Shown here piece by piece: positions 494-25,499 of a stretch of DNA of 64,000 nt; the first letter of the stretch is position 1, and each line of letters opens with the position of its first letter. A model generated the notes under the pieces. It saw nothing but the letters and a program-made list of their open reading frames with translations. It did not search any database and was not told where the DNA came from. Position numbers and translations under genes: made by a program. This DNA comes from Catellatospora methionotrophica (GTDB lineage Bacteria > Actinomycetota > Actinomycetes > Mycobacteriales > Micromonosporaceae): assembly GCF_011297335.1 (NCBI RefSeq), contig NZ_JAAOTJ010000027.1, positions 1-64,000 of the forward strand, in the 5' to 3' direction.

Positions 494-554
494 GATCGCT
501 GTTTCGTGTCAGAAACTGCGGCCCCACCTCACGATGTGACACGAAACAGCGATC
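494..554. repeat. 61-bp hairpin repeat element, copy 1
   Basis: Perfect 18-bp inverted arms (494-511 and 537-554) enclose a 25-nt core. A second element of the same length and layout is at 25411-25471. The reverse complement of this core matches that copy at 17 of 25 positions, so the copies lie in opposite orientation. Arm sequences differ between copies but stay complementary. The element sits 40 bp downstream of the EPS operon stop and may also act as its terminator. Read as an intergenic mobile or structural repeat family (inference). Confidence 0.8.
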
Positions 555-593
555 ATCGTGTGGGACAGGGCGGTTGAGGTCGACGGATCCGGG

Positions 594-1613
594 TCAGTGG
601 CCGGGTTGGCGGGTGAGCCAGGGGTCTTTGGCCAGGAGGGTGAGGGCTTTGACGGCGTCGGGTTCCTTGTCGACCGTGGTGGCGTAGCGCGGGCGGGAGT
701 CCTGCTCGCTGCTGAAGTAGAGGATGCCCTTGATCTGCGGCTGCTGGGGTAGGGCCAGGCGCATCTCGTGCAGCCAGGCGGCTCGCTGGCCGGGGTTGCC
801 CTGCACGACGCCGAACTCGCCGATGAGCAGCGGGCGGGGACGGTGCCGGGCCCACTCCAGCACGGGTGCCATCAGCTGGGTGAAGGTGTACATCTCAGGG
901 CCGGAGTACACGTCGGCGCACAGCCAGTCGACCTGGTCGTCGCCCGGATAGTAGGGCTGGGCGCGGCCGTCCATGAAACCGTCGGCGTGCGGGCACCACA
1001 CCCAGGCGGCGTTGTCCGCGCCGACCTCGGTGAAGATGGCGCGTACGTGCTTCCACGCGGCCACGTAGTCCTCCGGGGAGTGGACCACGTTGAACAGGTT
1101 CGGCCGGTCCATCTCCCAGCGGTAGCGCAGCAGGATCGGGGTGCGGAAGTTGCGTACGGCCTCGGCGCGCCGCCGGATCTCCTCGTCGTAGACCCCGGTC
1201 ACGATCGAGCGGGTGTCGGTGCCCGCCCAGGAGATCATCAGCAGCTTGCCGCGGTGCACCAGTTCGTAGTCGTAGGTCGACGGGAAGTCGTCCTGCCACG
1301 GGTGGAACGAGTGGGCCAGCGCGAGCGGCCGGTCGACCATCTCCTCGAAGCTGTCGATCGCGTCGAGCTGGTCGCCGGTACGCCGGTTCTGCGCGTTGAC
1401 GAAGGCGCCGAACCACGCGCCCGTATCGGGTACCGCGGGCCCGCGCCCGGTGGTCGTGAACGGACCGGACGCGGCCAGGGGGAGCTGCTCCAGGGTGGGG
1501 CTGGGACGAACCGCCATAGGCGGCTCCTCCTCCGGGACGACGGTCGTGCAGCCGGCAGCCGCCACTGCCAGAAGCACCATCACCAGCCCCGCAGCCGGTA
1601 ATGCTCTTCTCAT
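594..1613 (-). CDS. GH26-like glycoside hydrolase lipoprotein
   Basis: The 339-aa protein starts at ATG 1613, overlapping the flippase stop as ATGA. It has a short lipoprotein signal with lipobox AAAGC (Cys22), so it is probably anchored outside the membrane. The rest resembles glycoside hydrolase family 26 (beta-mannanase type): YRWEMD supplies a candidate acid/base Glu167 and LIGEFGV a candidate nucleophile Glu266. The fold is also supported by WAGTD and VWCPHADG segments. It is the last gene of the EPS operon, so trimming or releasing the polymer made by the operon is a reasonable role. The exact substrate cannot be read from sequence. A second GH26-like protein is encoded at 12779-14404. 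Confidence 0.8.
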   Translation of the reverse strand: MRRALPAAGLVMVLLAVAAAGCTTVVPEEEPPMAVRPSPTLEQLPLAASGPFTTTGRGPAVPDTGAWFGAFVNAQNRRTGDQLDAIDSFEEMVDRPLALAHSFHPWQDDFPSTYDYELVHRGKLLMISWAGTDTRSIVTGVYDEEIRRRAEAVRNFRTPILLRYRWEMDRPNLFNVVHSPEDYVAAWKHVRAIFTEVGADNAAWVWCPHADGFMDGRAQPYYPGDDQVDWLCADVYSGPEMYTFTQLMAPVLEWARHRPRPLLIGEFGVVQGNPGQRAAWLHEMRLALPQQPQIKGILYFSSEQDSRPRYATTVDKEPDAVKALTLLAKDPWLTRQPGH

Positions 1614-3202
1614 GGGACGAGGGTCTCCACTGGGGGTGAGGTCTGTGCCGGGGTCTTGCCACGACGCCGGAGCGCGCGCAGGCCGGCCAGTTGCAGAACG
1701 TGTCTGCAGCGCCACACTACCGCCAGATAGGCGACGGTCGCGACGAGCACCGAGGCGACCCCGACGAGCGGGTGGTCGCCGAAAAGGGCACGGGCCAGCA
1801 GGGGCAGGGCGGCGTAGCAGGCCACGGCGGCTGCCATCGCGACGAACCCGCCCCGGCAGAGGGGGGACAGTCCGTGCCGTCGCTGCAGCTGTACCAGCGG
1901 CAGCAGGTTCTTGATGAGCAGCGCCGTCGACCAGGCGATCGCGGCGCCGACGATCCCGTAGGACGGGATCAGCACGATGTTGAGGACCACGTTCACGACC
2001 AGCGCCAGCATGGTCTGGAAGAACGCGACGCCGGTATGCCCGGCCATCTCCTGGACCGTGGAGACCATGCCGCACGCGGTCGCGACGAGCATGGTCAGCG
2101 ACAGCACGATCCCGACGACGCCCGCGTCGCCGCCCGCCGTGTAGCCCTGGCCGAACACCGTCATCAGCTGGCCGCCGAAGATGGCCCAGGTCAGGTAGAA
2201 CGGCCAGATCAGCGCGATCAGCCAGGTGGTGGTCATCTGGTAGAGCCGGTTGGCCTCGTCGTGCTGGTTCTGCGCGAGCAGTCCGGAGAAGCGGTGCTGC
2301 ACGGTCTGCCCGAGTGCCTGCCCGCCGAGCTGGCCGATGACCAGGAAGCGGGTGGCGGCGGTGTAGAGCGCGGCGTCGACCGGGCCGCGCAGCGCGGCCA
2401 TCAGCACCACGTCGAGGCGCTGCAGGGCCAGCTGCGCCAGTCCGGTGCCCGCCCGGGGCGAGGCGTACCGCCAGAACCGTCCCCAGTCCTCGCGGGTCGG
2501 CGCCTCGACGGGCTGCTTGCCGGAGCGTTCGGCCTTGCGGCGCAGTTTCGCCGACCAGAGCACCGCGACGACCAGGCCCAGCGCGTACGGCAGGGACCAG
2601 GCCAGGGCCAGTGCGACGGAGCTGGTCCAGCCCGCGATCAGCACGGCGACGACGCCGAGCAGTTGCAGGCCGGGCCGCAGCACCCGCATGACCATGACGT
2701 TGGGCCGGGTGGTGCCCAGTCCACGGCCCACGGCCAGGTGTACGCCGGTGATGGTGGAGGTGGGCAGGAAGACGCCGAACACCCGGATCGCGGCGACGGT
2801 GCCCGCCGGGGCGTCCGGCAGCATGATGTCGACCAGCCACGGCGCGGCGAACCACAGCCCGACCGCGAGCACGATGCTGGCGACCACGACCGGGATCGTC
2901 GCGATCCGTACCGTGGCGCGGATCTTTCCGGTCTCCTCGCGCACCCGCTGCTGGGCGAGCAGGTAGACCACGCCGGTCTCCGCGCCGAGCAGCGCCGCCG
3001 CGGACAGGATCAGGAACACCGAGGTGAGCGTGAACAGCACCCCGGCGACGCTGGCGTCGAAGCCACGGGTGACGACCACGGTCAGCGCCAGGCCGGCGAG
3101 CGCGGAGACGCCCGCGCCGACGAGGTTGAACAGGCTGCTGCGCATGACGCGCCCGCGGTCGGCCCCGTAGGCCCCGGCGTGCGCCGGTGCGGTGACGCTC
3201 AT
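1610..3202 (-). CDS. Oligosaccharide flippase (Wzx/MATE-like)
   Basis: The 530-aa polytopic membrane protein has about 12-14 hydrophobic segments spread over its whole length and an N-terminal segment FNLVGAGVSALAGLALTVV typical of polysaccharide exporters of the MviN/Wzx/MATE superfamily. Such proteins flip lipid-linked repeat units across the membrane. The ATG at 3202 overlaps the sulfotransferase stop, and its own stop overlaps the GH26-like start, each by 4 bp, so translation is probably coupled. An O-antigen ligase/polymerase-like gene and a Wzz-like gene in the same operon support a Wzy-dependent route. A longer in-frame reading exists upstream, but it lies inside the sulfotransferase gene and has no family similarity. 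Confidence 0.88.
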   Translation of the reverse strand: MSVTAPAHAGAYGADRGRVMRSSLFNLVGAGVSALAGLALTVVVTRGFDASVAGVLFTLTSVFLILSAAALLGAETGVVYLLAQQRVREETGKIRATVRIATIPVVVASIVLAVGLWFAAPWLVDIMLPDAPAGTVAAIRVFGVFLPTSTITGVHLAVGRGLGTTRPNVMVMRVLRPGLQLLGVVAVLIAGWTSSVALALAWSLPYALGLVVAVLWSAKLRRKAERSGKQPVEAPTREDWGRFWRYASPRAGTGLAQLALQRLDVVLMAALRGPVDAALYTAATRFLVIGQLGGQALGQTVQHRFSGLLAQNQHDEANRLYQMTTTWLIALIWPFYLTWAIFGGQLMTVFGQGYTAGGDAGVVGIVLSLTMLVATACGMVSTVQEMAGHTGVAFFQTMLALVVNVVLNIVLIPSYGIVGAAIAWSTALLIKNLLPLVQLQRRHGLSPLCRGGFVAMAAAVACYAALPLLARALFGDHPLVGVASVLVATVAYLAVVWRCRHVLQLAGLRALRRRGKTPAQTSPPVETLVP

Positions 3203-4068
3203 CGCCGCCAGCTCGGCTGATGGCCGAGCCAGTCGGCCAGGCGCTGGTCGTACGGCGCGAAGTGGTCCTCCAGGCGGGCCCGCAGCTCGTCCGACATCGG
3301 CGAGCGGGGCCGGGCGTTGTGCTGGTCGTGCACGATGCCCGGCGCGTCCGGGATGCCCAGGAACTCGCACACGCCGGTGAACACGCGCGCCGGGTCGGCG
3401 AAGTAGTCGTGGCTGTCGACGACGTGCAGCCGCTCGCGGCCGACCAGCGACTCCAGGTGCAGCAGCTGGTCGATGTACTCGCCGCGGCCGAGGTGGGCGA
3501 GGTGGCGTACGGCGTGGCTGTGGTAGTTCGGGTCGGCGGCCATCTTCTCGCGCTCGCCGGCCATGCGCCCGGCTTCGAGCGCGACGGCCTGCTCGAACTT
3601 CTCGGTCTCGAAGCCGCGGGCGTACTCGTGGGCGTGGCCCGAGTAGGCGCGCTCGACCGGGTCGCGCAGCAGCACGATGAGCTTCACACCGGGCAGGTCC
3701 CGGGCGATGCGCTCGGGGGCCAGCGGGTGCCACATGTAGTACGGGCTGGCCTCGCCGGTGACCACGGGCGTGCCGAGGGCCTGCGAGGTGCGCTCGGCCT
3801 TGCTGCGGCTGACGAAGTGGCCCATGAACCAGGCGTGGCCGCGGTGGTAGTCCATGTCGAAGTAGTGCACGCCCTTGCGGAAGCGCGGCGGCAGGTAGGA
3901 CGGGTGCTGCGCGAGCGCCTTGTGCAGCGACGTGGTGCCGCCGCGCTGCGTGCCGACGATCAGGAACGACGGCACCATGCGCCGGTCCGCGGTCAGCTGT
4001 CCCGCGGTCCGGGCCAGCGCGCCCGCCTTGCGCCAGACGAACTTCCGTACGCGGCTCTTGACTGCCAT
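3199..4068 (-). CDS. PAPS-dependent sulfotransferase, EPS operon
   Basis: The 289-aa protein starts at ATG 4068, which overlaps the previous stop as TGATG. It shows the 5'-phosphosulfate-binding loop GTQRGGTTS (residues 39-47) and the 3'-phosphate motif RDPVERAYSGH (Arg135, Ser143) of cytosolic/Golgi-type sulfotransferases. HYFDMDYHRG and GEASPYYMW fit the heparan/NodH-like carbohydrate branch. It should transfer sulfate from PAPS to a sugar hydroxyl, probably on a lipid-linked repeat unit before flipping, since the flippase follows in the operon. Substrate is inferred from context only. Confidence 0.88.
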   Translation of the reverse strand: MAVKSRVRKFVWRKAGALARTAGQLTADRRMVPSFLIVGTQRGGTTSLHKALAQHPSYLPPRFRKGVHYFDMDYHRGHAWFMGHFVSRSKAERTSQALGTPVVTGEASPYYMWHPLAPERIARDLPGVKLIVLLRDPVERAYSGHAHEYARGFETEKFEQAVALEAGRMAGEREKMAADPNYHSHAVRHLAHLGRGEYIDQLLHLESLVGRERLHVVDSHDYFADPARVFTGVCEFLGIPDAPGIVHDQHNARPRSPMSDELRARLEDHFAPYDQRLADWLGHQPSWRR

Positions 4069-5288
4069 CAGTTCTCTCCCACCAGAGAAGCCCATCGCCC
4101 GCCGAGTCCGGCGAACGCCCCGATGATCCACTCGTCGACGCGGCCCATCGGCCGGCCGAGGTTGTCCAGACCGTCGCCGAGGTACCGGCTGCCGATCTCG
4201 ACGAAGTACAGGGCGGCGACCTCGTTCGCGACCGCCGCGTCGACCCCGAGCGGGGCGAGCAGTTCCGCGGCCCGCCCGGCCACCGCCCGTGCGGCGGTCA
4301 CGGGGTCGGTATGCCGTACGGCGACGGCCTCGTGCAGCTCGAAGTGCAGCGGGTCGTAGCCGACCGGCACGTCCGGCGTGAAGCGTTCGAAGTCCCACAG
4401 CAGCAGCTCGCCGTCGCGGACGGACATGTTGCCGCCGTTCCAGTCGCCGTGCCAGCAGCCGAAGCCGAGCTCGGCGTCCGCGCACGCGGCGAGCGCGCGC
4501 CGCATCAGACCCGCGGTGGGCCGCTCGCCCAGCGCGTCGACCTGCGCGGCCAGCCGGGCGGCGTACGAGCTCCCCGCGTACGTGCTCCGGGTGACGCCCT
4601 GCACCTGGGCGATCGAGCGCATCGCGGCGAGGCTCAGCGGGGTCAGCCCGTCCGGCGGGGCGTCCTGGCTGACCGGCAGCGCGCCGACCACGAGCAGGGA
4701 CGCACCGGCCCAGGTGCCGAAGTGCAGCACCTCGGGGACGCGCGCGGGGGCCAGGTCACGGCCGGACAGCAGGCTCAGCGCCCGGTGCTCGGCGTCGACC
4801 AGGGTCGTGGTCAGGTCGTTGACGGCCATCTTCGCGTACGCCACGGTGTGCGCCCGGTCGTCGATGAGCTGGAGCACCGGCTTGCGGTTGGCCCGGGGCG
4901 GCCCGAAGCGCACGCTGAGCCGCACCCGCTGCCCGAGCAGGCCGCTGAGGTGCTCGGCCAGCGTCGGCTGCGCCTGCACCGCGAGCCGGTCACGGAAGAC
5001 CAGGTCGCCGAGGGTGCGGCTGCCGAGCCCGGTGGAGAAGACCCCGGCGAGCACCCGCTGGCGCAGCCGGTCCTTCGCGGACCGGGGGGCGCTGGTGTGC
5101 CGGATGGCCGCACCGGCCGCGCGCCGGTCGCCGTGCGGGACGAGCAGCCGTGCCTTGCCGATGGCGGGCACGACGGTGTAGACCTCGCCGGCCGCTCCCG
5201 CGCCCCGGCCCAGGAAGACCCCGTCGGTGGCGGCGTCGACGTCATCGCCCAGGAGCCGGCCGAGCTCGGTGAGGAACTCCCCGCTCAC
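4068..5288 (-). CDS. APH/choline-kinase-like phosphotransferase
   Basis: The 406-aa protein starts at GTG 5288. Its C-terminal half carries the aminoglycoside-phosphotransferase kinase signature: the catalytic loop CWHGDWNGGNM (around residues 281-291) and the Mg-binding LWDFERF (around 300). The N-terminal 200 residues are divergent. Within an EPS operon it is more likely to phosphorylate a sugar, lipid or polymer precursor than to give drug resistance (inference). It lies 43 bp after the O-antigen ligase gene and overlaps the sulfotransferase start by 1 bp. Confidence 0.75.
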   Translation of the reverse strand: MSGEFLTELGRLLGDDVDAATDGVFLGRGAGAAGEVYTVVPAIGKARLLVPHGDRRAAGAAIRHTSAPRSAKDRLRQRVLAGVFSTGLGSRTLGDLVFRDRLAVQAQPTLAEHLSGLLGQRVRLSVRFGPPRANRKPVLQLIDDRAHTVAYAKMAVNDLTTTLVDAEHRALSLLSGRDLAPARVPEVLHFGTWAGASLLVVGALPVSQDAPPDGLTPLSLAAMRSIAQVQGVTRSTYAGSSYAARLAAQVDALGERPTAGLMRRALAACADAELGFGCWHGDWNGGNMSVRDGELLLWDFERFTPDVPVGYDPLHFELHEAVAVRHTDPVTAARAVAGRAAELLAPLGVDAAVANEVAALYFVEIGSRYLGDGLDNLGRPMGRVDEWIIGAFAGLGGRWASLVGEN

Positions 5289-5331
5289 TTCGCCGCCTCG
5301 CGGCCGGTCGTGGTCAGGGTCCGCGCGCGGC

Positions 5332-6777
5332 TCATGTGTACACCCGGTTCGTCTCGTTGCGCCAGAGCAGGGCCAGCGGAACCATCATGATCACCAGCGT
5401 CATGCCGGTGGAGTTGTAGATCGTGGCGAACCAGATCGCCAGCGGGGCGGTGACCCCGGCGGCGATGCCGAGCCACGAATGGTCGCGACGGAACCGCCAG
5501 CCATACCAGGCGAAGAACAGCAGGTAGAGACCCGCGCCGACGAAGCCCTGCGTGATCAGCAGCATCCAGAGCTGGCCGTCGCTGCCGATGTCGCGGTTGC
5601 CGCACTGCTCGCAGGACGGGCTCTGGCCGATCGCGATGGACCGCTCGCTGCCGATCGTCTCCGACTGGCCGCCGAACCCGATGATCGGCGACGCCTTCGC
5701 GGCCTCCACCGCGGCGGCGTTGAGCGACGCCCGGCCCTCGTTGGAGTGCGGGTTGTCCATGCGCGCCGTGATCGTGCTGCCCAGCGGGGTTGCCAGCACC
5801 AGCAGCCCGGCCAGGGCCACGGCGACGAGCACCCCGGCCACCGGCATGATGCTGCCGCGGATCGCCATCCGGACGACCAGGTAGGCCAGGATGATGCCCA
5901 GGCCCGCCCAGGTGCCGCGGTTCAGCGAGTACACGATCGGGACCATCGCGGCGGCCAGCACGAGCGCGGGCCAGATCTTGCTCCACAGGGTCTTCGCATC
6001 GTGGTACGTGGCCAGGATGAACCAGGGCAGCAGCACCGCGATGCACTGGCCCCAGGCGTTGGTGTACTGGAACGGCGCGGCCGGGCGGGGCGACGGCGAC
6101 TCGCCGACGATGCTCTGCCACTGCGCGAACTCGATGCGCACCGACGAGCGGACCCAGCCGTTGGCCATCAGCGACTTCGGCATCACCTCGGCCAGCGGCG
6201 TCGTCACCGCGATGCGCGGCAGCAGCACACCCGCGATGCCGCCGACGACGAGCACCACGAAGAAGTAGGCCAGGAACTTGACGACACGCTTGGTCGGCAG
6301 CTCCTTCTCGGAGAGGTTGCCGACGTAGAGCAGCACCACGATCGCGGCGGCCATGTCCATCAGGCGGCGTACGAACGCCAGGATGCGCCCGAGGCCCATC
6401 TCCACCGGCAGCGCGTTCGGCACGGTGGCGTCCAGCATGACGACGCCGACCAGGCCCAGGAAGCACAGCAGCAGCCAGGCGAAGACCGGGGAGGGCATCC
6501 GCACCCGGCGACGCCGGAGCAGCTCCAGCGCCATCGGGATCGCCAGCAGCGGCACCCAGGCCAGGGTCAGGCCGAGCAGCCAGCCGACCGGGTACAGCAC
6601 GATCATCGCGAACAGCGCCCACTCACGGACCGGGATCGGCTCGTGCGCGCCCCGGCGGTGCAGCACCGCCGCCAGCGGCGGCAGCGCCCTGGCGTGCTCG
6701 GGGACGGCCACCACCGCGCGGACGCCCGCGCCCGTGGCGGCGGCCTCCCCCGGCGTGCGGCGGGCGGGGGTGGTCAC
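5332..6777 (-). CDS. O-antigen ligase/polymerase-like membrane protein
   Basis: The 481-aa protein starts at GTG 6777, chosen because it overlaps the upstream TGA (GTGA). It has about ten hydrophobic segments and a large outside loop between the last groups that holds conserved-looking polar residues (NRGTWAGLGI, DNPHSNEGRASLNAA) and a close Cys pair in PSCEQCGNRD. This is the layout of the Wzy/WaaL O-antigen ligase family, which polymerises or transfers lipid-linked glycans on the outer face of the membrane. In a locus with flippase and Wzz-like genes, polymerase is the likelier role. Confidence 0.82.
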   Translation of the reverse strand: MTTPARRTPGEAAATGAGVRAVVAVPEHARALPPLAAVLHRRGAHEPIPVREWALFAMIVLYPVGWLLGLTLAWVPLLAIPMALELLRRRRVRMPSPVFAWLLLCFLGLVGVVMLDATVPNALPVEMGLGRILAFVRRLMDMAAAIVVLLYVGNLSEKELPTKRVVKFLAYFFVVLVVGGIAGVLLPRIAVTTPLAEVMPKSLMANGWVRSSVRIEFAQWQSIVGESPSPRPAAPFQYTNAWGQCIAVLLPWFILATYHDAKTLWSKIWPALVLAAAMVPIVYSLNRGTWAGLGIILAYLVVRMAIRGSIMPVAGVLVAVALAGLLVLATPLGSTITARMDNPHSNEGRASLNAAAVEAAKASPIIGFGGQSETIGSERSIAIGQSPSCEQCGNRDIGSDGQLWMLLITQGFVGAGLYLLFFAWYGWRFRRDHSWLGIAAGVTAPLAIWFATIYNSTGMTLVIMMVPLALLWRNETNRVYT

Positions 6778-7772
6778 GAGACGGTCACCTTCGCGGTGGA
6801 GGGCAGCAGCAGGATCCAGCTCGGGCCCGGCGACAGCCGCACCACGGACTGCTCGGGACCGAGCAGGTTGAGCGCGGAGAAGAAGCCCTCCTTGGCCCAC
6901 GTCGCCTTGGCGCCCTGGCCCGCTCCGAAGACCTGGGCCGCGCCCTTGCCGACCGGGTCGGCCATCAGCACCTCACGGTCCAGCGCCTTGACGTCCTTCT
7001 TGTTGAAGGGCGTGGTCAGCAGGATCAGGTTGGCCGCGGCGACGGGCACCCCGCCGAGCGTGGTCTGCCAGCGCCGGGTGGTCGCGTCGAACTTCCAGGT
7101 GACCGCCGTGTGTCCGGCGGCCGCGACGACGATCGTGGTGGCCGGGGTGCTGCCCGTGGCGACGGGCTCGGCGGGCTGGCCGAACTGGAACAGCGAAGCC
7201 AGCAGCTTCTGCTGCGCGGGAGCGGTCGCCTGCAGCGTGCCCGTGTTGACGTAGACGCGCCCGGAGACGGTGGTGAACCCGGTCTTCTTGGCCGGGGTGA
7301 CCGCCGCCAGCTTCGACAGCGTGAGCAGGTCGAGCCAGCCCTTCGGGGTGCCGTTGTGCACCATGTACGGCTGGAGCTGGTTGAGCAGCTTGATCTCGGC
7401 GGGGCGTACGGCCGCCACCGGGCCGACCTTGTCCGCGGGGGTGGACTGGTACACCGCAGCCACCCGCAGCAGCTTGCCCTCGGCGAACTCCAGCTCGACG
7501 ACGTCGGCCTTGTCCAGCCCGACCGGCGCCGCCGCGCCCGTGCCGATCTCGATGGGCACGATGACGGCGCGCTTGGCCTTGGTCGCCTCCTCGGTCTCCA
7601 GCCCGGTCAGCGGCGCGCGTGGGCGCACCGCGTCCGGCGACGGCAGCGTGAACGGCGACTGCTCGACGGGAGCCACCGGCGGCGGCTTGGTGGCGGGGCC
7701 GACCCCGCAGCCGGAGGTGAACGCGGCGGCGGCCAGCACGGCCGCCGCACCCAGGCGAAGTGACCGGCTCAT
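6774..7772 (-). CDS. DUF3048-family lipoprotein
   Basis: The 332-aa protein starts at ATG 7772, overlapping the upstream stop as ATGA. It begins with a lipoprotein signal (lipobox TSGC near residue 22) and a proline-rich linker. The body matches the YerB/DUF3048 family: ADVVELEF, DKVGPVAAVRPAEIKLL and PYMVHNG follow the family pattern in order. The function of DUF3048 proteins is not established. Placement between the Wzz-like and polymerase-like genes suggests an outer-face accessory in chain assembly (inference). Confidence 0.72.
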   Translation of the reverse strand: MSRSLRLGAAAVLAAAAFTSGCGVGPATKPPPVAPVEQSPFTLPSPDAVRPRAPLTGLETEEATKAKRAVIVPIEIGTGAAAPVGLDKADVVELEFAEGKLLRVAAVYQSTPADKVGPVAAVRPAEIKLLNQLQPYMVHNGTPKGWLDLLTLSKLAAVTPAKKTGFTTVSGRVYVNTGTLQATAPAQQKLLASLFQFGQPAEPVATGSTPATTIVVAAAGHTAVTWKFDATTRRWQTTLGGVPVAAANLILLTTPFNKKDVKALDREVLMADPVGKGAAQVFGAGQGAKATWAKEGFFSALNLLGPEQSVVRLSPGPSWILLLPSTAKVTVS

Positions 7773-9487: not shown

Positions 9488-9792
9488 TGATTCCCCTTGT
9501 TTACAAACCCATGAACACAGGACCGACGACCGGCGCGGCGCAGGTGAAGACGCCCTGGGTAGACGGTCCTCACCCTAGCCATCGCCGCCTGGCACGCGTT
9601 CAGCCAAACGGCCACTTCTGTGTCAGACCGGAGTTATTGGACGCCACGATCGCATCGGCGGGCTCAAGAGTATGACGCCCAGACCTGCCGTTCGGTCAGA
9701 TCACATGCACTGTCAGGCTACCGACAATCGTCCGCGCGGAAATGTTAAATCGTGTCGCTAGGCTGCGGGTCGTCGACAGGAGAGGAACCGAG
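9488..9792. promoter_or_regulatory. Divergent promoter region of the two EPS operons
   Basis: This 305-bp gap separates the minus-strand and plus-strand EPS operons. A -10-like TAGGCT at 9759-9764 (+) lies 13 bp before the AGGAGAGG ribosome site (9778-9785) of the Alg14-like gene. On the minus strand, AAGGGG precedes the Wzz-like start. No clear operator palindrome was found. Confidence 0.5.
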
Positions 9793-10263
9793 GTGGGCGA
9801 ACCGAATCGTGCACGTCATGTCATGCTGGTCGGCTCGTCGGGCGGACATCTCGCCCAATTGTACGCGCTGCGTCCATGGTGGACAGATCGTTTCCGCACC
9901 TGGGTGACGTTCCCCACGCAGGACGCGCACAGCCTGCTCGACGGGGAGAACGTGGTCTACGCGCACTACCCGACCACCCGAAACATCCCGAATCTGCTAC
10001 GTAACGCACTGCTCGCGGTGAAGATGCTGCGCAGCACGCGGCCCGACGTGGTGATCTCGACCGGGGCCGGTGTCGCGCTGCCGTTCTTCGTGGTCGCCCG
10101 GCTGCTGCGGATACCCACTGTTTACGTGGAGGTCTACGACCGGCTGGAGACGCGCACCCTGACGGCGCGGCTGTGCGCGCCGTTCACCTCGCGCATGCTG
10201 GTGCAGTTCGAGGAGCAGCTCCGGCTGTACAAGGGCGCGAAGCTGGTAGGGCCGCTGCTGTGA
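9793..10263 (+). CDS. Alg14-like glycosyltransferase subunit (PssD/EpsE type)
   Basis: The 156-aa protein carries the Alg14 signature VGSSGGHLAQL near its N-terminus and the membrane-associating stretch GAGVALPFFVVARLL. Alg14-type subunits anchor an Alg13-type catalytic partner and form a two-part glycosyltransferase; the partner domain is in the next gene. The GTG at 9793 is preferred because AGGAGAGG lies 7 nt upstream and the candidate promoter (9759-9764) falls after the alternative ATG at 9742. The stop overlaps the next start as GTGA. Confidence 0.85.
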   Translation: MGEPNRARHVMLVGSSGGHLAQLYALRPWWTDRFRTWVTFPTQDAHSLLDGENVVYAHYPTTRNIPNLLRNALLAVKMLRSTRPDVVISTGAGVALPFFVVARLLRIPTVYVEVYDRLETRTLTARLCAPFTSRMLVQFEEQLRLYKGAKLVGPLL

Positions 10264-12712: not shown

Positions 12713-12734
12713 CACGCACCGCTCGAACACGCGG

Positions 12735-12764
12735 AAGGGGCGGGATCCGCGGATCCCGCCCCTT
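12735..12764. terminator. Bidirectional terminator between convergent EPS genes
   Basis: A perfect palindrome with 14-bp arms (12735-12748 and 12751-12764) lies 22 bp after the GT2 stop and 14 bp from the stop of the convergent GH26-like gene. There is no long T-run, but position and stability support termination. Confidence 0.75.
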
Positions 12765-12778
12765 CTCCATGCGCTATC

Positions 12779-14523: not shown

Positions 14524-14559
14524 CCGATCCTGATCACATTTCTCGTGATCGGCGATCGG
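14524..14559 (-). terminator. Hairpin downstream of the 440-aa propeller gene
   Basis: Two nested stems (14524-14529 with 14554-14559, and 14532-14537 with 14545-14550) lie 12 bp beyond the stop of the minus-strand gene. There is no T-run, so termination is probable rather than certain. Confidence 0.45.
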
Positions 14560-14570
14560 AGGTATCCCGA

Positions 14571-15893: not shown

Positions 15894-16084
15894 ACGTCCG
15901 GATGCTGCCACGAATCGGCGGGAAAGCCTGTCGGGCAGATGACCACGGGAATGCCGGTTTATCGCTTGCGTGAATACCACTTCACGTACTATTACGGGTC
16001 TATTGTCGACAATTAGGCCGAAGTATTCGGCACACTTTAGCCGTTCAGCCCGTATCCGGCAACGCCCTGTCCCGCAAAGCACGA

Positions 16085-16114
16085 CGGACCGGTCACCCGA
16101 AGGTGACCGGTCCG
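16085..16114 (-). terminator. Terminator after the propeller-malectin gene
   Basis: A perfect 13-bp stem (16085-16097 with 16102-16114) with loop CGAA lies 21 bp beyond the minus-strand stop. The flanking bases are only weakly T-rich on that strand. Confidence 0.7.
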
Positions 16115-16135
16115 CCTTTCCTACTCGGGTCGATC

Positions 16136-18685: not shown

Positions 18686-19087
18686 AGTTGTTTTCTCCCG
18701 CCCAACCAAAGGAAGTCGGGCCCGGTAGACACCGGTGCCCGAACGCGATAAGCCGCAGCTGACGCTAACCCTGAAGCTTCGGCGAGTCTCCTGCTCACGG
18801 CAAGAGGAAGCCAGGCAATGTGGCTGATCGGACAATCAATCAACACCCAAGTCGAGTGGATGTTGTATCTTCCGCGTCCGCAGCTCGGCTGGCCGTGACA
18901 CCGGCGAGGCGGATCAGCCGCTCTTCGTGTCGACAGTGCGACATCGGCGCCCGAGGGTCGTCGATCCGATCACGACCATGATGTCGATGACTCCCGCGAA
19001 GTCTAATTCGGACTTGGCATCCCGCCAAGTCGTCACCTTCTGGCTGGTCAGAGCACTGACCGCGGAACACCGGAGGGCCCAGGCCGC
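18686..19087. other. 402-bp gap between propeller gene and ispD
   Basis: No convincing gene was found. Near 18695-18705 it holds the ribosome site of the propeller-malectin gene. A hairpin (19011-19018 with 19024-19031, loop 5 nt) lies 57 bp beyond the ispD stop and may end that transcript. Base composition is less GC-rich near 18780-18860. Confidence 0.5.
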
Positions 19088-19819
19088 TCAGAGTGGATGC
19101 GCGGCCAGGAGGGACTCGGCGATGAGGAGGTCGAGTGGTCGAGTGATCTTGAGAGCCAGGTCGCTGCCGGGGACGCAGTGCACCTGGTGCCCCAGCCGCT
19201 CGACCATGCCGGCGTCGTCGGTGTGCTCGTCCACGGCGTGCTCGTGGGCGCGCACGAGCGTGACGCGCCGGAAGCCTTGGGGAGTCTGGATCACCCGCAG
19301 CGGAGCCCGGTCGACGGTCTCCAGGACGCACTCGCCGGTGTCCACCCGCTTGATCGTGTCGACCACGGGCAGCGCGGGCACGACCGCCTCGCGGCCGGAC
19401 CGGACTGCCGCGGCGACCGCCTCGACCAGCTCGGCCGGGGCCAGCGCGCGGGCCGCGTCGTGCACCAGCACGACCTCGATCGTCTCGGGCACGGCGGCCA
19501 GGGCCGCGGCCACCGACAGCTGCCGGGTGGCTCCGCCCGGCACCACGGTCGCTGCGGGGACCATCGCCCGGACGGCTTCGACCTCGGCGGGCGGCGCGGC
19601 GATGACGATCATCGCGACCGACGGGGCCTGGGCGAGGCGGCGGCACGCGTGCACCAGCAGCGGCTCGCCGGCCAGCTCACGCAGCGCCTTCGGGGTTCCG
19701 CCGCCGAGCCGCAGGCCCATGCCCGCTGCGGGAACGAGAACCGCGACGTCCTTGCGCCGATGGGGCGCAGGAACGTCGCGGCTATCGATATCAGATGACA
19801 CTGTCGTTGTGCGGGTCAC
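19088..19819 (-). CDS. ispD: 2-C-methyl-D-erythritol 4-phosphate cytidylyltransferase
   Basis: The 243-aa enzyme transfers CMP from CTP to MEP in the non-mevalonate isoprenoid pathway. The nucleotidyltransferase signature [12 protein letters not shown] with PKAL (about residues 29-45) and the mid-protein VHDAARAL and TIKRVD segments are present. GTG 19819 overlaps the carD stop as GTGA, so the two genes are co-transcribed, the order usual in actinobacteria. IspF, often the next gene, is not found downstream; a propeller gene follows instead. Confidence 0.93.
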
Positions 19820-20301
19820 GCCTCGGCTAGCACCTTGTCCAAGAGAACCTCGGCTCCGTCCTTGGTGCTCTTCTCGGCGAGCGCGACCTCGCCGACGAGG
19901 ATGTCCCGAGCCTTGGCGAGCATCCGCTTCTCCCCCGCCGACAGACCACGCTCACGCTCACGACGCCAGAGGTCACGCACGACCTCCGCCACCTTGAGCG
20001 GGTTACCCGAGGCAAGCTTCTCGAGATTCGCCTTGTATCGCCGCGACCAGTTGGTCGGCTCCTCGGTGTGCGGGGCGCGGAGGACGTCGAAAACCTTGGA
20101 CAGGCCCTCTTCGCCAACCACCTCACGCACGCCGACGATCTCGGCGTTCTCGGCGGGCACCCGCACCGTCAGGTCGCCTTGAGCGACCCGAAGGACGAGG
20201 TAAAGCTTCTCCTCGCCCTTGATGGTGCGGGTCTCGATAGCCTCGATGAGTGCGGCCCCGTGGTGGGGGTAGACAACGGTCTCGCCGACACTGAAATCCA
20301 T
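19816..20301 (-). CDS. carD: CarD-family RNA polymerase-binding transcription factor
   Basis: The 161-aa protein begins [19 protein letters not shown], the RNA-polymerase-interacting (RID) domain shared with TRCF, followed by an alpha-helical C-terminal domain with [19 protein letters not shown] and basic helix [10 protein letters not shown]. CarD binds RNAP beta and stabilises open promoter complexes, in particular at rRNA promoters. The ATG has AAAGGGG upstream and a TACCCT -10 candidate at 20329-20334. ispD follows with a GTGA overlap. Confidence 0.96.
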
Positions 20302-20328
20302 AGGTACGAAACCCCTTTCGCTGTGTCT

Positions 20329-20334
20329 AGGGTA
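20329..20334 (-). promoter_or_regulatory. Candidate -10 of the carD-ispD operon
   Basis: TACCCT on the minus strand lies 27 bp before the carD ATG, which would give a short leader carrying AAAGGGG. No clear -35 was found. Confidence 0.45.
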
Positions 20335-20599
20335 ACACGGGCGTGCCGCGCAGTCCCAGCCCGTCTTGCACAGTTAGCGCAGCTCACCCCCGTTGTGAGG
20401 CGTATTTCTTCTGCTTGACACGGCTCAGCAGCGCTTCTTCCGCTACTCTCGGTGACCTTTTCTGCACTCATTGGCATCTGTAGGCCCCGATGTCCGCATC
20501 GCGAACCGACCTCAATCTCCTTCGACGCGCCACTAGCGTGAGGCTGTACGACGCGGGACAGTAGAGAGACGCGGTGCTTCAACGCGCGAGGAGCCGGCG

Positions 20600-21046
20600 A
20601 TGGGCACGCTGGGCAACGGCCTTCCGGACCTCCCGCCCGAGTGGGGAGAGGTCGTCATTCCCGATGACCCCGCTGAGCTGGCCGAAGAGGCTGAGCGGAT
20701 CCGGGACGAACTGCGAGCCGAAGCCAGGGCCGCGCGACGGGCGGCCTGGCGGGCCCGCTGGCGACGGCGGCTGCACCTGCCCGAACGCATCGACGATCCT
20801 GATCAGCCTTCGCTCGTGCTGCCGCTGGTCGTGCTCGGCATCGCGGTGGTGATCACTCTGCTGAGCCTGCTGCTCATCGCCTGGCCCGGCCTGACCCGGT
20901 CGACCCCGGACGCACCACAGCCCGGCCCGCCCGTCCGCCCGGCCGTGTCCACCCCCGCCACCTCCGCCCACGCCCACGCCCTCGCCCCCGCCGTGATCGT
21001 CACGCCCGCCTGGCCGTCGCCCGGGGGCGGTGACGCGCGACACTGA
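20600..21046 (+). CDS. Small single-pass membrane protein, unknown function
   Basis: The 148-aa protein starts at ATG 20600 with GAGGAG upstream. It has an acidic N-terminus, then an Arg/Ala-rich amphipathic helix (about 25-57), one membrane segment (LVLPLVVLGIAVVITLLSLL, about 72-95), and a Pro/Ala-rich tail that should lie outside. No known domain is recognised. It precedes the UbiA-like gene by 4 bp. A TACTCT at 20444-20449 could be its -10, leaving a leader of about 145 nt. Confidence 0.7.
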   Translation: MGTLGNGLPDLPPEWGEVVIPDDPAELAEEAERIRDELRAEARAARRAAWRARWRRRLHLPERIDDPDQPSLVLPLVVLGIAVVITLLSLLLIAWPGLTRSTPDAPQPGPPVRPAVSTPATSAHAHALAPAVIVTPAWPSPGGGDARH

Positions 21047-21050
21047 TCGG

Positions 21051-21851
21051 ATGTCACCGCTGGGCCTGCTGCGCGCCTGCCACCCGTTGCCCGCCCTCGC
21101 CGTCACCGTGTTCGGTGGATTGCTCGCCGTCGGCATGGGCCACACCGCAGGCGGCGTCGCCGCGGTCATGGCCACGGTGGCGCTCAGCCAGTTGTCCGTC
21201 GGCTGGGCCAACGACGCGATCGACGCCGCGCGCGACGCAGCCGTGGGGCGGGCCGACAAGCCGCTGGCCGGGGACCCGGCGGGTCGGCGTACCGTCGCCG
21301 TCGCGGCCGGGGTGGCCGCCGCCGCGACCTTCGCCGCCTGCGTGTGGTGGGGCTGGCCGGCCGGGGCCTGGTTCGCGGTCGCCGTGCTCTCCGCCCACCT
21401 GTACAACTGGCCGCTCAAGGCGACCGCCTGGTCGATCGTGCCCTACCTGGTGTCGTTCGCCGCGCTGGTGATCTTCGTGAGCACCGCGCTGCCCGGCGCG
21501 CCCGCCCCGCCCGGCTGGCTGATCGCCGCGGCGGCGCTGCTGGCGGGCGCCGCACACCTGCTCAACGCGGTGCCCGACCTGGCCGACGACGCGGCCACCG
21601 GCATCCGCGGCCTGCCCCAGCGGCTGGGCGCCCGGCGCAGCCTCGCCGCGGCCTCCGGGCTGCTACTGGCCGCGACGCTCACCCTGCTGGCCGGAGCCCG
21701 GCCGCCGCTGTGGGCCGGGGCCGCCGCGCTGCTCACGGCCGCCGTCCTGATAACCATCGGCTGGTACGCGGCACCGCGCACCGCCTTCCGTGCACTGCTC
21801 GCCGTAGCCGCCGTGGACCTGGCTCTGCTGGTGCTCAGCGGCGCGCTGTGA
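21051..21851 (+). CDS. UbiA-family prenyltransferase
   Basis: The 266-aa polytopic membrane protein has the first Asp-rich motif NDAIDAARDAAVGRADKPLA and a second, DLADDAATGIRGLPQRLG, both needed to bind prenyl diphosphate through Mg2+. About eight hydrophobic segments fill the rest. It should prenylate an aromatic or similar acceptor; the acceptor cannot be assigned. ATG 21051 is chosen; an in-frame GTG at 21030 overlapping the previous gene is possible. It lies downstream of an uncharacterised membrane gene and upstream of a lipoprotein gene. Confidence 0.85.
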   Translation: MSPLGLLRACHPLPALAVTVFGGLLAVGMGHTAGGVAAVMATVALSQLSVGWANDAIDAARDAAVGRADKPLAGDPAGRRTVAVAAGVAAAATFAACVWWGWPAGAWFAVAVLSAHLYNWPLKATAWSIVPYLVSFAALVIFVSTALPGAPAPPGWLIAAAALLAGAAHLLNAVPDLADDAATGIRGLPQRLGARRSLAAASGLLLAATLTLLAGARPPLWAGAAALLTAAVLITIGWYAAPRTAFRALLAVAAVDLALLVLSGAL

Positions 21852-21891
21852 TCAGCGGCGGGTCGCCTGCGGGGCCTCGATCGCCGGACAC

Positions 21892-21897
21892 TACGCT
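21892..21897 (+). promoter_or_regulatory. Leaderless -10 of the PCuAC-like lipoprotein gene
   Basis: TACGCT ends 6 nt before GTG 21904, with no Shine-Dalgarno between, so the mRNA probably starts at or next to the start codon. Confidence 0.7.
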
Positions 21898-21903
21898 GGG
21901 CCC

Positions 21904-22641
21904 GTGACTCGCTCGATCACCATGCTCCTGGCCGGCGGTGCCGCCGCCGCTGCCCTGGCCCTGACCGGCTGCAGCGCCGGCATGAACTCGCAGACCGCCG
22001 ACCAGGTGGCGGCCGTGCCCGGCTACAGTCTGACCGCTCCCGGCCCCAACGGGGGCAGTGTCGCGCTCCGCGACGCGATGCTCGCCTACGCCGGCCCGAC
22101 CGGATACGCGAAGGGCGCGATCGCTCCCCTGCAGCTGCGCATCTTCAACGACACCGAGCAGCCCATCACGCTCGACAAGTTCGAGTCCAATGACGCGACC
22201 GGCGTCAAGCTGGCCTCGGCTGCCGACCTGAAGGCGAGCCCGAGCCCGGCCGCCGCGTCGCCGAGCCCCTCGGTGGCCGCGTCGCCGAAGACCTCCGGCA
22301 GCCCGTCCCCGAAGGCCTCCGGCAGCCCGTCGCCCGACGCGGCGACCAGCCCGGAGCCCTCGGCCAGCCCGGCCGCCGCTGCCCCCGCGAAGCTGACCAT
22401 CCCGGCCGCCGGTTACCTCGACCTGACCCCGGGCAGTGGCCAGTTCCTCGCCCTGACCGGGCTCAAGGACGCGGTCCCCAACGGCGAGGGCGTGCACCTG
22501 AAGCTGACCTTCTCCAACGGCGTGGTCCTGGAGACCCTGCCGGGCACCGTGGTGCCGCTCGCACCGCCGCTGAGCCCGCAGCCGCGCCTGCCCGCGACCG
22601 CGCCGCCGACCCGCGCCGGCACCGAGGGCGAAGGCCACTGA
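21904..22641 (+). CDS. PCu(A)C-like lipoprotein with Ser-Pro repeat insert
   Basis: The 245-aa protein starts at GTG 21904, fixed by the leaderless -10. It has a lipoprotein signal with lipobox LTGC (Cys23). Two blocks of the copper-chaperone PCu(A)C fold are visible (SVALRDAMLAYAG to PITLDKFESNDATGVKL, and LTIPAAGYLDLTPGSGQFLALTGL to VHLKLTFSNG). They are separated by about 55 residues of A/S/P repeats such as ASPKTSGSPSPKASGSPSP. The Met/His copper ligands of classical PCu(A)C proteins are missing, so metal binding is doubtful. radA follows. Confidence 0.75.
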   Translation: MTRSITMLLAGGAAAAALALTGCSAGMNSQTADQVAAVPGYSLTAPGPNGGSVALRDAMLAYAGPTGYAKGAIAPLQLRIFNDTEQPITLDKFESNDATGVKLASAADLKASPSPAAASPSPSVAASPKTSGSPSPKASGSPSPDAATSPEPSASPAAAAPAKLTIPAAGYLDLTPGSGQFLALTGLKDAVPNGEGVHLKLTFSNGVVLETLPGTVVPLAPPLSPQPRLPATAPPTRAGTEGEGH

Positions 22642-22654
22642 CACACCCACGGGG

Positions 22655-22660
22655 TAGGTT
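22655..22660 (+). promoter_or_regulatory. Leaderless -10 of radA
   Basis: TAGGTT ends 6 nt before the radA GTG (22667), with no ribosome site between. It lies 13 bp after the previous stop codon. Confidence 0.7.
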
Positions 22661-22666
22661 GCGCAC

Positions 22667-24085
22667 GTGACAGTGCGCAGCACCTCGAAGACGGCGAAGC
22701 CCGCACGCCCCGGATACGTCTGTGACGCGTGCGGGCATCAGCCTCCCAAGTGGTTCGGCCGCTGCCCCGAGTGCGGCGAGTGGGGCTCGGTCATCGAGGC
22801 CTCGACCGGCCCGGCCCTCGGCGCGATGCGCAACGTGGCTGCCCGCACCCCCGGTGAACCCGCCCGGCCCATCGCCACCATCTCCGCCGTGCCCGCCCGC
22901 GCGGTCGCCACCGGCGTCAGCGAACTCGACCGCGTGCTCGGCGGCGGCATCGTGCCCGGCTCGGTCGTCCTGCTGGCCGGCGAGCCCGGCGTCGGCAAGT
23001 CCACGCTGCTGCTCGACGTCGCCCAGCAGTGGGCCTCCGGGGCCGGCAGCCCCGCGCTGATCGTCAGCGGCGAGGAGTCCGTCAGCCAGATCCGGCTGCG
23101 CGCCGAGCGCATGAACACCCTGCACGAGCAGCTCTACCTGGCCGCCGAGACCGACCTGGCCGCCGTGCTCGGGCACCTCGACGCGGTCAAGCCCGGCCTG
23201 CTCGTGCTCGACTCCGTGCAGACCATCGCCGCCCCCGGCAACGACGGCGTGCCCGGCGGCGTCACCCAGGTGCGGGCGGTGACGGCCGCGCTGATCGCCG
23301 TCGCCAAGGAGCGCAACATCGCGGCCGTGCTGGTCGGCCATGTGACCAAGGACGGCAACGTGGCCGGTCCCCGGGTGCTCGAACACCTGGTCGACGTGGT
23401 GCTGCACTTCGAGGGCGACAAGCACTCCTCGCTGCGCCTGGTCCGCGGGCTGAAGAACCGGTTCGGGGCCGCCGACGAGGTCGGCTGCTTCGAGATGCAC
23501 GAGAGTGGCATCGCCTCGCTGCCGGACCCGTCGGGACTGTTCCTCACCCGCTATGCCGAGCCGGTCCCCGGCACCTGCGTCACCGTCGCGATGGAAGGCC
23601 GCCGGGCCCTGGTCACCGAGGTGCAGGCGCTGATCGGGGCGACGGTGGCCGGCTCGCCCCGGCGCACCGTCTCCGGGCTCGACTCGGCCCGGCTGGCCAT
23701 GGTGCTGGCCGTGCTCCAGCGGCGTACCGAGCGCATGGCGCTGCACGACAAGGAGGTGTTCGCGGCCACCGTCGGCGGCATCCGGGTCGTCGAGCCCGCC
23801 GCGGACCTGGCCGTCGCGCTCGCCGTCGCCTCCGCGGGGCTCAACCTGTCCATGTCGCCCCGGCTCGCGGCCATCGGTGAGGTAGGTCTCACCGGTGAGG
23901 TGCGCCGCGTGGGCGCGGTCCCCAGGCGGCTCGCCGAGGCGGCCCGGCTGGGCTTCAAACACGCTCTGGTGCCGCCCGGTTGCGGTCCGTCGTCAACGGG
24001 CACCCCGGCCGGCGACATGCGGGTCGAAGAGGTGTCCGATCTGCGTACCGCACTGCACTGGGCTGCCCGATTGTCCGCTGAGTGA
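22667..24085 (+). CDS. radA: DNA repair protein RadA
   Basis: The 472-aa protein is a RecA-like branch-migration ATPase. Domains in order: a C4 zinc finger (CDACGHQPPKWFGRCPEC, residues about 19-36); a RecA-like core with Walker A GEPGVGKST; the RadA-specific KNRFG motif (about 264-268); and a Lon-protease-like C-terminal domain (GGIRVVEPAADLAVALA, MSPRLAAIGEVGLTGEVR). It acts in recombinational repair. disA follows 54 bp downstream, the usual actinobacterial order, and DisA activity is known to be restrained by RadA in other bacteria. Confidence 0.97.
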   Translation: MTVRSTSKTAKPARPGYVCDACGHQPPKWFGRCPECGEWGSVIEASTGPALGAMRNVAARTPGEPARPIATISAVPARAVATGVSELDRVLGGGIVPGSVVLLAGEPGVGKSTLLLDVAQQWASGAGSPALIVSGEESVSQIRLRAERMNTLHEQLYLAAETDLAAVLGHLDAVKPGLLVLDSVQTIAAPGNDGVPGGVTQVRAVTAALIAVAKERNIAAVLVGHVTKDGNVAGPRVLEHLVDVVLHFEGDKHSSLRLVRGLKNRFGAADEVGCFEMHESGIASLPDPSGLFLTRYAEPVPGTCVTVAMEGRRALVTEVQALIGATVAGSPRRTVSGLDSARLAMVLAVLQRRTERMALHDKEVFAATVGGIRVVEPAADLAVALAVASAGLNLSMSPRLAAIGEVGLTGEVRRVGAVPRRLAEAARLGFKHALVPPGCGPSSTGTPAGDMRVEEVSDLRTALHWAARLSAE

Positions 24086-24127
24086 CGCTCCCACCACGGG
24101 CCGACGGGGTCGCTCCAGCGGCCCCCG

Positions 24128-24133
24128 TAGAAT
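24128..24133 (+). promoter_or_regulatory. Leaderless -10 of disA
   Basis: TAGAAT lies 6 nt before GTG 24140. This spacing, shared by other leaderless genes here, favours that start over the GTG at 24134. Confidence 0.7.
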
Positions 24134-24139
24134 GTGCCC

Positions 24140-25246
24140 GTGCCGATCGATCGCGACACCACCTGGAACACCGCCGCAGTCGGCGGTGATCCGCTGCGCG
24201 CCACCCTGGCACGGGTCGCTCCGGGCACGCCACTGCGCGACAGCCTCGAGCGCATCCTGCGCGGCCGGACCGGCGCCCTCATCGTCCTCGGGTACGACAA
24301 ACTCATCGAGACCCTGGCCACCGGCGGTTTCCCGCTCGATGTCGAGTTCTCCGCCACGCGCCTGCGCGAGCTGTGCAAGATGGACGGCGCCGTCGTGCTC
24401 TCCGCCGACGGCACCCGCATCCTGCGCGCCGCCGTGCACCTGATGCCCGACGCCTCCATCCCCACCGAGGAGTCCGGCACCCGGCACCGCACCGCCGAGC
24501 GCGTCTCCAAGCAGAGCGGCTACCCGGTCATCTCCGTCAGCCAGTCGATGCACATCATCGGCGTCTACGTGGCCGGACAGCGACACACCCTGGACGACTC
24601 CGGACAGATACTGTCCCGGGCAAATCAGGCACTGGCCACCCTGGAGCGCTACAAACTGCGCCTCGACGAGGTCAGCGGCACCCTCTCCGCGCTGGAGATC
24701 GAGGACCTGGTCACCGTCCGTGACGCCCTCGCGGTCGTCCAGCGCCTGGAGATGGTCCGCCGCATCTCCGACGAGATCGCCGGCTACGTCGTGGAACTCG
24801 GCACCGACGGCCGCCTGCTCTCCCTCCAGCTCGACGAGATGATGGCCGGCGTCGACGCCGACCGCACCCTGGTCATCCGCGACTACCTGCCCCCCAACCG
24901 CAAGACCAGAACGGTCGACGAGGCCCTGGTAGAGCTCGACCTGCTCACCGCCAGCGAGCTCATCGACCTCGTCTCGGTCGCCAAGGCCATGGGCTACCCG
25001 GCCACCACCGAGGCCCTCGACGCCGCCGTCAGCCCCCGCGGCTTCCGCCTCCTGGCCCGGGTGCCCCGCCTGCCCGGTGCGATAGTCGACCGCCTCGTCG
25101 ACCACTTCGGCAGCCTCCAGCGTCTCCTGGGCGCCACCGTCGAGGACCTCCAGGCCGTCGAGGGAGTCGGCGACGCCCGCGCCCGCGGCGTACGCGAGGG
25201 CCTCTCCCGCCTGGCCGAGACCTCGATCCTCGAACGCTACGTCTAG
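24140..25246 (+). CDS. disA: Diadenylate cyclase / DNA integrity scanning protein DisA
   Basis: The 368-aa protein makes cyclic di-AMP from two ATP. The DAC domain has both catalytic motifs, MDGAVVLS and [14 protein letters not shown] helical linker and a RuvA-like helix-hairpin-helix DNA-binding end ([19 protein letters not shown]) follow. The protein scans DNA for branched structures and lowers c-di-AMP production there. GTG 24140 is preferred for its promoter spacing; GTG 24134 would add two residues. A repeat-rich intergenic region follows. Confidence 0.96.
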
Positions 25247-25335
25247 CCCCCACCCGCCCAACCCTCCCCACCGCGCCCCACCACGCGCGCCGCACCGCGA
25301 GCCGCGTCCCGCGAGCCGCGTCCCGACCGGCCGAA

Positions 25336-25381
25336 GGAAGGGCACCTTCCCATCGCTATGCGTAGAGGAAGGTGCCCTTCC
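25336..25381. terminator. Long perfect hairpin after disA
   Basis: Perfect 15-bp arms (25336-25350 and 25367-25381) enclose a 16-nt loop, 90 bp after the disA stop. The arm sequence (GGAAGGGCACCTTCC) is itself partly palindromic. It may terminate disA and looks like an intergenic repeat type seen widely in Micromonosporaceae (from memory, not checked). Confidence 0.7.
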
Positions 25382-25410
25382 CAACGGGGATGGACGTCGC
25401 CCACGGCGAT

Positions 25411-25471
25411 GATCGCTGTTTGCGGTCAAAAGGTGAGGTCCAACCGCAGGTTCTGACCTCAAACGGCGATC
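25411..25471. repeat. 61-bp hairpin repeat element, copy 2
   Basis: Arms 25411-25428 and 25454-25471 are complementary with two mismatches, and the pairing extends outward to 25405-25477. The 25-nt core is related, in reverse orientation, to that of the copy at 494-554. Both copies are exactly 61 bp between equivalent arm ends. Confidence 0.8.
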
Positions 25472-25499
25472 ATCGCCACGCACCGCCGCAACACGGGGG

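Follow-up and report, generated by a model that had tools for sequence, protein, structure and literature searches.

Among dispersed repeats, bcr1 of Bacillus cereus, YPAL of Yersinia and NEMIS of Neisseria fold as RNA hairpins in the neighborhood of genes. Here we describe a 61-bp hairpin element, different from these three in sequence, length and host, which occurs twice in a 64,000-nt stretch of the Catellatospora methionotrophica genome (assembly GCF_011297335.1, contig NZ_JAAOTJ010000027.1, positions 1 to 64,000 of the forward strand; hereafter the window). Repetitive extragenic palindromic (REP) sequences have been described with GTAG or CGTC tags, and the phyla named for these tags in the parts of the source cited here do not include Actinobacteria (PMC3733652). 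To judge from the RepRanger table, which counts palindromic repeats in three Actinomycetota species, such repeats are not new in this phylum in themselves; the main text of that paper contains none of the terms Streptomyces, Micromonospora and GATC, Catellatospora not having been a search term (PMC12306157). In another system, inverted pairs of DNA uptake sequences are described as forming terminators (PMC2267715). A search of the open-licence literature returned no title on such repeats in Catellatospora.

The Catellatospora elements form a family of near-fixed 61-bp length with GATC at both ends. They lie mostly after genes and show an excess of double changes that keep base pairs; at one site the hairpin is retained beside unalignable flanks, and gaps with an element hold fewer other strong hairpins. 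The best reading of these sequences is that the 61-bp palindromes are dispersed and REP-like and are probably kept as 3'-end RNA hairpins. In its full form, the reading that we favor with moderate confidence is that the element is a genus-specific palindromic repeat acting as an RNA hairpin at transcript 3' ends, in both directions where it lies between convergent genes. The two copies in the window are as follows.

494 to 554, no strand assigned: hairpin element copy 1, 61 bp (left arm 494-511, core 512-536, right arm 537-554)
25411 to 25471, no strand assigned: hairpin element copy 2, 61 bp (left arm 25411-25428, core 25429-25453, right arm 25454-25471)

Direct reading of the letters bore out what the initial annotation had said of these copies, namely their coordinates, their equal length (18-25-18) and the pairing of 18/18 and 16/18 arm positions, and the likeness of the cores at 17 of 25 positions with one copy inverted was reproduced. 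Copy 1 has a perfect 18-bp stem, with the triplet CGT at arm positions 12-14. The exceptions to complementarity in copy 2 are one T.G and one C.T position, and its pairing runs on into the flanks (GGCGAT/ATCGCC). The copies differ from each other in the arms at positions 12-14 and 7, and each forms 23 of the 29 possible Watson-Crick pairs over the full 61 bases. RNA folding of 81-91-base stretches around both copies beat all 200 dinucleotide shuffles on both strands, with z-scores of -4.2 to -8.1. Rfam covariance models gave no match in the window at the gathering score; between 25300 and 25600 there were 8 weak matches, all far below gathering scores. The case for a repeat family from the window alone is thin: the arm pattern with at most 3 mismatches matched 5 times there (4 exact), versus 2.4 expected.

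The whole genome and the genus, where the initial annotation had proposed that further copies be sought, supplied them. In the window's genome (G000, 8.39 Mb), the arm pattern GATCGCNGTTTNNNNTCA matched 230 times (114 + 116 on the two strands) and its reversed control 0 + 0 times. The strict full 61-bp pattern, which is palindromic and so meets each copy once per strand, found 144 copies, versus none for the reversed pattern. This whole-genome control rules out chance resemblance. It also disposes of the idea that the window holds two unrelated terminators, alike by chance, to which we now assign almost no probability; the position of both copies between convergent genes would fit that idea, but 144 full-length matches against 0 refute it. 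Strict copies were present in all 11 Catellatospora genomes, the ten others holding 93 (G006), 32, 21, 20, 16, 16, 15, 8, 7 and 1. The low counts in part reflect diverged copies, because a covariance model, with scoring limited to 150 strand matches, found 68 to 150 of them per genome in all 11. The strict pattern had no match in 289 further genomes of the Micromonosporaceae (G074 and G087 included), and in one genome each of 84,980 species it matched 48 stretches, all in four Catellatospora species, in a scan that may omit records close to the window's own genome. Weak covariance-model matches appeared in 6 of 58 genomes of other genera, the best (8e-9) in G074, which had 10 strand matches, and another (1.7e-7) in G087; the strict pattern confirmed neither genome.

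Strict matches are missing from a large part of the chromosome. The first 1.23 Mb of contig C1 of G000 had no strict match, against 17-19 expected from an even spread of 115 to 130 copies, a total below the 144 later counted. In G002, all 26 strict arm matches fell within 1.12-7.76 Mb of the 8.9-Mb contig C1; since dnaA lies at 4.20 Mb, the element-free part is opposite the origin, if the contig is circular.

The element varies little in length. In 2.4 Mb that we read, 307 of 319 paired arm matches had a 25-base spacer and only 6 arms stood alone, in a count where one element can score twice, once per arm. A search of 1.25 Mb for GATC...GATC hairpins, which required complementary arms and used no other family sequence, gave 61 as the dominant length: 77 such hairpins had 10 or more of 14 inner pairs, and no other length between 40 and 100 exceeded 10. 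GATC was invariant at both ends in the first 45 copies; later sets were selected for it, including the 234 distinct copies from 11 genomes (GATC at both ends, 61 bases). Outside GATC, base -1 was A or T at all 468 ends of these copies and base -2 was A at 364, in keeping with a family consensus of S-A-W (S, G or C; W, A or T). The corresponding flanks in the window are:

491 to 493, no strand assigned: flank left of copy 1, GGA
25408 to 25410, no strand assigned: flank left of copy 2, GAT

Two copies outside the selection rule carried GACC in place of one GATC, and we also saw related hairpins 58, 60, 68 and 80 bases long.

The initial annotation had proposed selection on structure, and the arms do covary. 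Across the 234 copies, left-right kappa at arm columns 7, 10, 12, 13 and 14 was 0.41, 0.52, 0.62, 0.50 and 0.78, whereas core columns 25, 26 and 29 gave -0.12, -0.01 and -0.03. In the 45-copy alignment, 81.9% of cells were paired and the covariation score was 0.195, versus 0.132 shuffled. Orthologous sites, set by flank matches, formed 39 groups with 95 overlapping pairs, from which one random pair per group was tested. In the arms of these 39 pairs, 41 of 56 two-sided changes kept the pair, versus a shuffled mean of 9.4 (maximum 20 in 1000 shuffles); in the core there were 13 pair-keeping double changes, versus 7.1 shuffled (maximum 15). Thus, arm pairing is kept far above chance, though it is not always kept. 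The outcomes that the initial annotation had named as refuting, an absence of further copies or arms varying with no complementarity, were both looked for and did not overturn its proposal, and the inferred selection on structure holds.

One convergent site (L063:10218-10348) displays this retention most clearly, and in several species. The hairpin is kept there with altered arms in eight species, in one of them shortened to 58 bases. The 61-base copies, seven in all with one from each species, give a gap-free alignment (G001 has two copies, one of 60 bases, and the 61-base one was used); 9 of 29 pairs are changed on both sides, 93.6% of cells are paired, and the covariation score is 0.241, versus 0.097 shuffled, with 0 of 500 shuffles as high. 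The DNA between stop codon and hairpin is unalignable, though neighboring regions match at 83-94%. At the same site G004, G008 and G009 appear by eye to have a short GC-rich palindrome of terminator type instead.

Such paired changes could also arise with no selection at all, if template switching during replication inside the hairpin transferred a mutation between the arms and so mimicked compensation. This would give exact paired changes without intermediates, and double transversions, for example G-C to T-A at column 14, are indeed the commonest double changes (36 of 143 among the 95 overlapping pairs). However, columns 25, 26 and 29, which lie nearest the turn, lack left-right identity, and the hairpin survives among unalignable flanks at L063. 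We regard template switching as a quite improbable account.

Nor do the orthologous copies look like random members of the family put in each other's place. Between G000 and G006, with two arms compared per copy, 29 of 36 comparisons agree at column 12, as expected from descent and not from replacement. Core identity in 18 G000-G006 ortholog pairs was 0.738, versus 0.656 for random copies (P = 0.003). Over all 95 pairs it was 0.679, versus 0.563 for random copies or 0.601 with the better of two orientations, so that the margin is modest and some copies may have been replaced by random ones. Column 14 differs directionally between the two genomes, with G in G000 and T in G006 in 13 arms and the reverse in 2. 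In the orthologous copy at L040/L052/L088 (G004, G009, G008) the core is strongly divergent and the arms are almost unchanged, the core being a perfect palindrome in G004.

The elements favor convergent gaps and avoid divergent ones. Genes were called with our own simple codon-based caller, and the context counts include orthologs more than once, at loci mostly chosen around known copies. Of the 234 copies, 102 were convergent, 99 tandem and 15 divergent, 15 lay at a contig or locus edge, and 3 overlapped a predicted gene. In long loci the corresponding numbers were 74 convergent, 77 tandem and 10 divergent, compared with 202, 701 and 310 among gaps of at least 80 bp. For tandem copies, the median distance from the upstream stop was 58 nt and that to the next start 168 nt. 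Both window copies are flanked by convergent genes:

30 to 431, + strand: gene upstream of copy 1, similar to an eEF1A C-terminal domain (Pfam PF22594), convergent partner, perhaps cut by the window start
447 to 480, + strand: terminator-like hairpin, located after the gene that ends at 431 and before copy 1
594 to 1517, - strand: convergent gene downstream of copy 1, glycosyl hydrolase family 26 match (PF02156, E = 7e-6)
24134 to 25246, + strand: disA, gene upstream of copy 2 (Pfam PF02457 and PF10635)
25742 to 26275, - strand: convergent gene downstream of copy 2, no Pfam match

A DNA-level alternative is that the element is a dyad bound by a nucleoid or topology protein between convergent genes, in which case the identity of the arms would reflect two identical half-sites and not RNA pairing. 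The dyad symmetry, the constant spacing, the convergent enrichment and the chromosome-scale gap in distribution would all suit such a site, as would the limited choice of letters at the paired columns, with mostly C or G at 12 and mostly G or T at 14. Column 13, however, takes all four bases and yet is paired in 72% of copies, versus 43% expected, which binding by a protein does not require; in addition, the core looks unrelated, by eye, in several G008 copies. We consider a protein-binding dyad improbable, if slightly less so than template switching. Mismatches in the arms bear on the same choice. On the sense strand of tandem copies they comprised 76 G.U and 42 A.C, while in convergent copies the numbers were 37 and 44. 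This G.U bias leans towards RNA without settling the matter.

Another perfect stem of at least 10 bp was found in 13 of 91 convergent gaps (30-600 bp) with a GATC element, versus 61 of 178 without (Fisher P = 0.0005), although the gaps with an element are the longer ones; for the 61-bp family alone the count was 11 of 68 (P = 0.005). Six convergent gaps of the window were counted, of which 4 contain such a stem, and terminator-like perfect hairpins in convergent gaps without the 61-bp element lie at:

12734 to 12765
29502 to 29539
45327 to 45358

Replacement of terminators is a tendency and not a rule, because the element and the terminator-like hairpin at 447-480 occur together in the gap of copy 1. 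The initial annotation had set the element against "two unrelated terminators": unrelatedness is refuted, as described above, but the contrast with terminators is only half right, since the elements occupy terminator places and tend to replace terminators.

Several observations weigh against a role as a 3'-end RNA hairpin. The first concern the pairing itself: double changes affected 15 pairs in the 45-copy alignment, versus 13.8 shuffled, which is not above chance (156 of 500 shuffles), though four other measures were above shuffles; and in the 39 ortholog pairs one-sided arm changes (90) outnumbered the two-sided ones. The ortholog of copy 1 in C. vulcania (L218) differs at positions 7 and 14 in one arm only, with two pairs broken and uncompensated. 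The second concern RNA and transcript ends. Tandem cores show no G.U excess (85 versus 82). With one copy per ortholog group, the G.U excess in the arms weakens to 48 versus 29 (P = 0.04), and the per-copy sign test gives 22 versus 13 (P = 0.18). Ten of the 161 long-locus copies are in divergent gaps, a classical U-run is lacking (just 4 of 468 ends have TTTT in the 12 nt beyond the stem), and the near-fixed length and invariant W at -1 exceed what a terminator hairpin needs.

How the copies spread is a separate question. The initial annotation had suggested "a mobile hairpin or a structured RNA"; a single dispersed family is borne out, but mobility is only an inference, since no clean empty site or target duplication was found. 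Neither was seen at copy 2 or at several ortholog gaps, where the flanks are too variable and where absence of the element comes with wider changes in the gap. By eye, the orthologous gap of copy 2 in 10 relatives has a full 61-bp element only in G009, placed differently. A second repeat (GGAAGGGCACCTTCC ... GGAAGGTGCCCTTCC) adjoins copy 2 within window 25332-25477. That stretch, which includes both repeats, has 26 other listed matching places at 73-87% identity, 13 in the window's genome and 13 in G002, G003 and G006, so that the second repeat and the 61-bp element often lie side by side. After copy 2, at 25537-25718, are GC-rich repeated units like gcggaggcagtgcgggtgcgcagtg (by eye).

Y1 transposase (PF01797, Y1_Tnp), the one transposase family searched, had no match in 5 of the 11 genus genomes, including G006 with its 93 strict copies. 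Of 9 PF01797 loci, 8 were scanned with at most 3 mismatches, and none of the 8 had an arm within about 1.5 kb. On these two results we reject mobilization by a RAYT (REP-associated tyrosine transposase) or IS200 enzyme. The rarity of solo arms in the 2.4 Mb gives no sign of a parent insertion sequence bearing these arms as its ends.

The 61-bp element has sisters in the same genus. An 85-bp family (arm GATCTTGCG), searched in five of the genus genomes, gave 121 arm matches in G001, 112 in G007, 36 in G010, 1 in G000 and 0 in G009. Together with an inner 67-bp reading, it lay in convergent gaps in 19 of 20 entries, orthologs and double readings being counted more than once. Families with GATC ends of 55/56, 75 and 62 bp lay mostly after genes (25, 13 and 2 entries). 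Examples of these further families are found at:

L116 9841, L111 13765, L110 7175, L066 19565 and others: GATC-end families of 55/56, 85, 75 and 62 bp

The shared GATC tag is partly by construction, as only GATC ends were searched. In an all-4-mer control, GATC started the most hairpins (140 of 1756). Its rate of 86.6 per 10,000 occurrences was exceeded by AAGA (159), AGAT (138), CTCT (117), ATCG (99) and TGAT (98); for some of these 4-mers, the hairpins are the same ones read in a shifted frame. GATC is thus first by number and not by rate, and this control does not by itself prove a tag. We raise, tentatively, the wider possibility of a GATC-tagged superfamily of fixed-length elements (55/56, 61, 75, 85 bp and others) that would have spread with no RAYT transposase and whose members would serve core genes as interchangeable 3'-end elements free of U-runs and replace ordinary terminators.

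Taken as purely selfish DNA, the element would resemble a REPIN or a miniature inverted-repeat transposable element (MITE), with arms that a transposase recognizes either in folded single-stranded form or as terminal inverted repeats, and with a location bias due to selection against insertion into promoters and genes. The near-fixed length, the GATC ends with W outside and the range of strict copy number from 1 to 144 between species are what mobile DNA would produce, and the same holds for the uneven 85-bp counts (121 to 0) and for a site where one gap is occupied by different families in different species. Copy-number differences between species indicate gain, loss or both. A dead insertion, however, should lose its pairing, whereas orthologs keep theirs through double changes above shuffles. 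The lack of target duplications and clean empty sites at the gaps inspected and the lack of Y1 matches in nearly half of the genomes also count against it; moreover, the first 1.23 Mb of C1, where the strict pattern has no match, holds two of the three Y1 matches of G000. We judge selfish mobility unlikely, though it is the strongest rival to a 3'-end hairpin.

If the 3'-end hairpin reading is right, the transcribed hairpin would mark or protect the 3' end of the message. Assisted by factors such as Rho or NusG, it might stop or slow the polymerase, or it might instead block 3' exonucleases; in either case a hairpin that marks or protects the end would lead selection to keep the arms paired. 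Copies may have arisen by REP-like amplification and then been kept or lost site by site. When several species show compensatory change at one and the same site, this strongly suggests that a dispersed repeat functions as a folded molecule, and the family supplies hundreds of natural arm variants for testing that function. Should 3'-end hairpins without U-runs prove real, they would bear on how high-GC actinomycetes end their transcripts; and several GATC-tagged families without a consistent RAYT gene, if true, would raise the question of what copies them.

Among known systems, the arms recall MITEs in being terminal inverted repeats (18 bp). Bidirectional intrinsic terminators likewise place a strong hairpin between convergent stops, and a terminator-like hairpin stands in the element's place at an orthologous site; unlike them, the element lacks a U-run and has a near-constant 61-base length and a shared sequence. 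As in inverted pairs of DNA uptake sequences, two short motifs lie inverted at a short distance (PMC2267715), but solo arms are almost absent from the Catellatospora family (6 versus 319 paired). The likeness to REPs and REPINs, as described in the parts of PMC3733652 that we cite, extends to several features: high copy number, extragenic position after genes with a preference for convergent and unidirectional gaps, several families per genome sharing a terminal tetranucleotide, complementary stem changes and G-T stem pairs (PMC3733652). The differences from that description are that GATC stands at both ends in place of a GTAG or CGTC tag at one end, and that there is a single 61-base hairpin with 18-bp arms instead of the 6-13 bp stems of GTAG families (PMC3733652); further, Y1_Tnp had no match in 5 of the 11 genomes, and no RAYT gene flanked by the repeats was found among the 8 loci scanned. 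The elements thus resemble REPs in number, place and pairing but fail three defining REP features.

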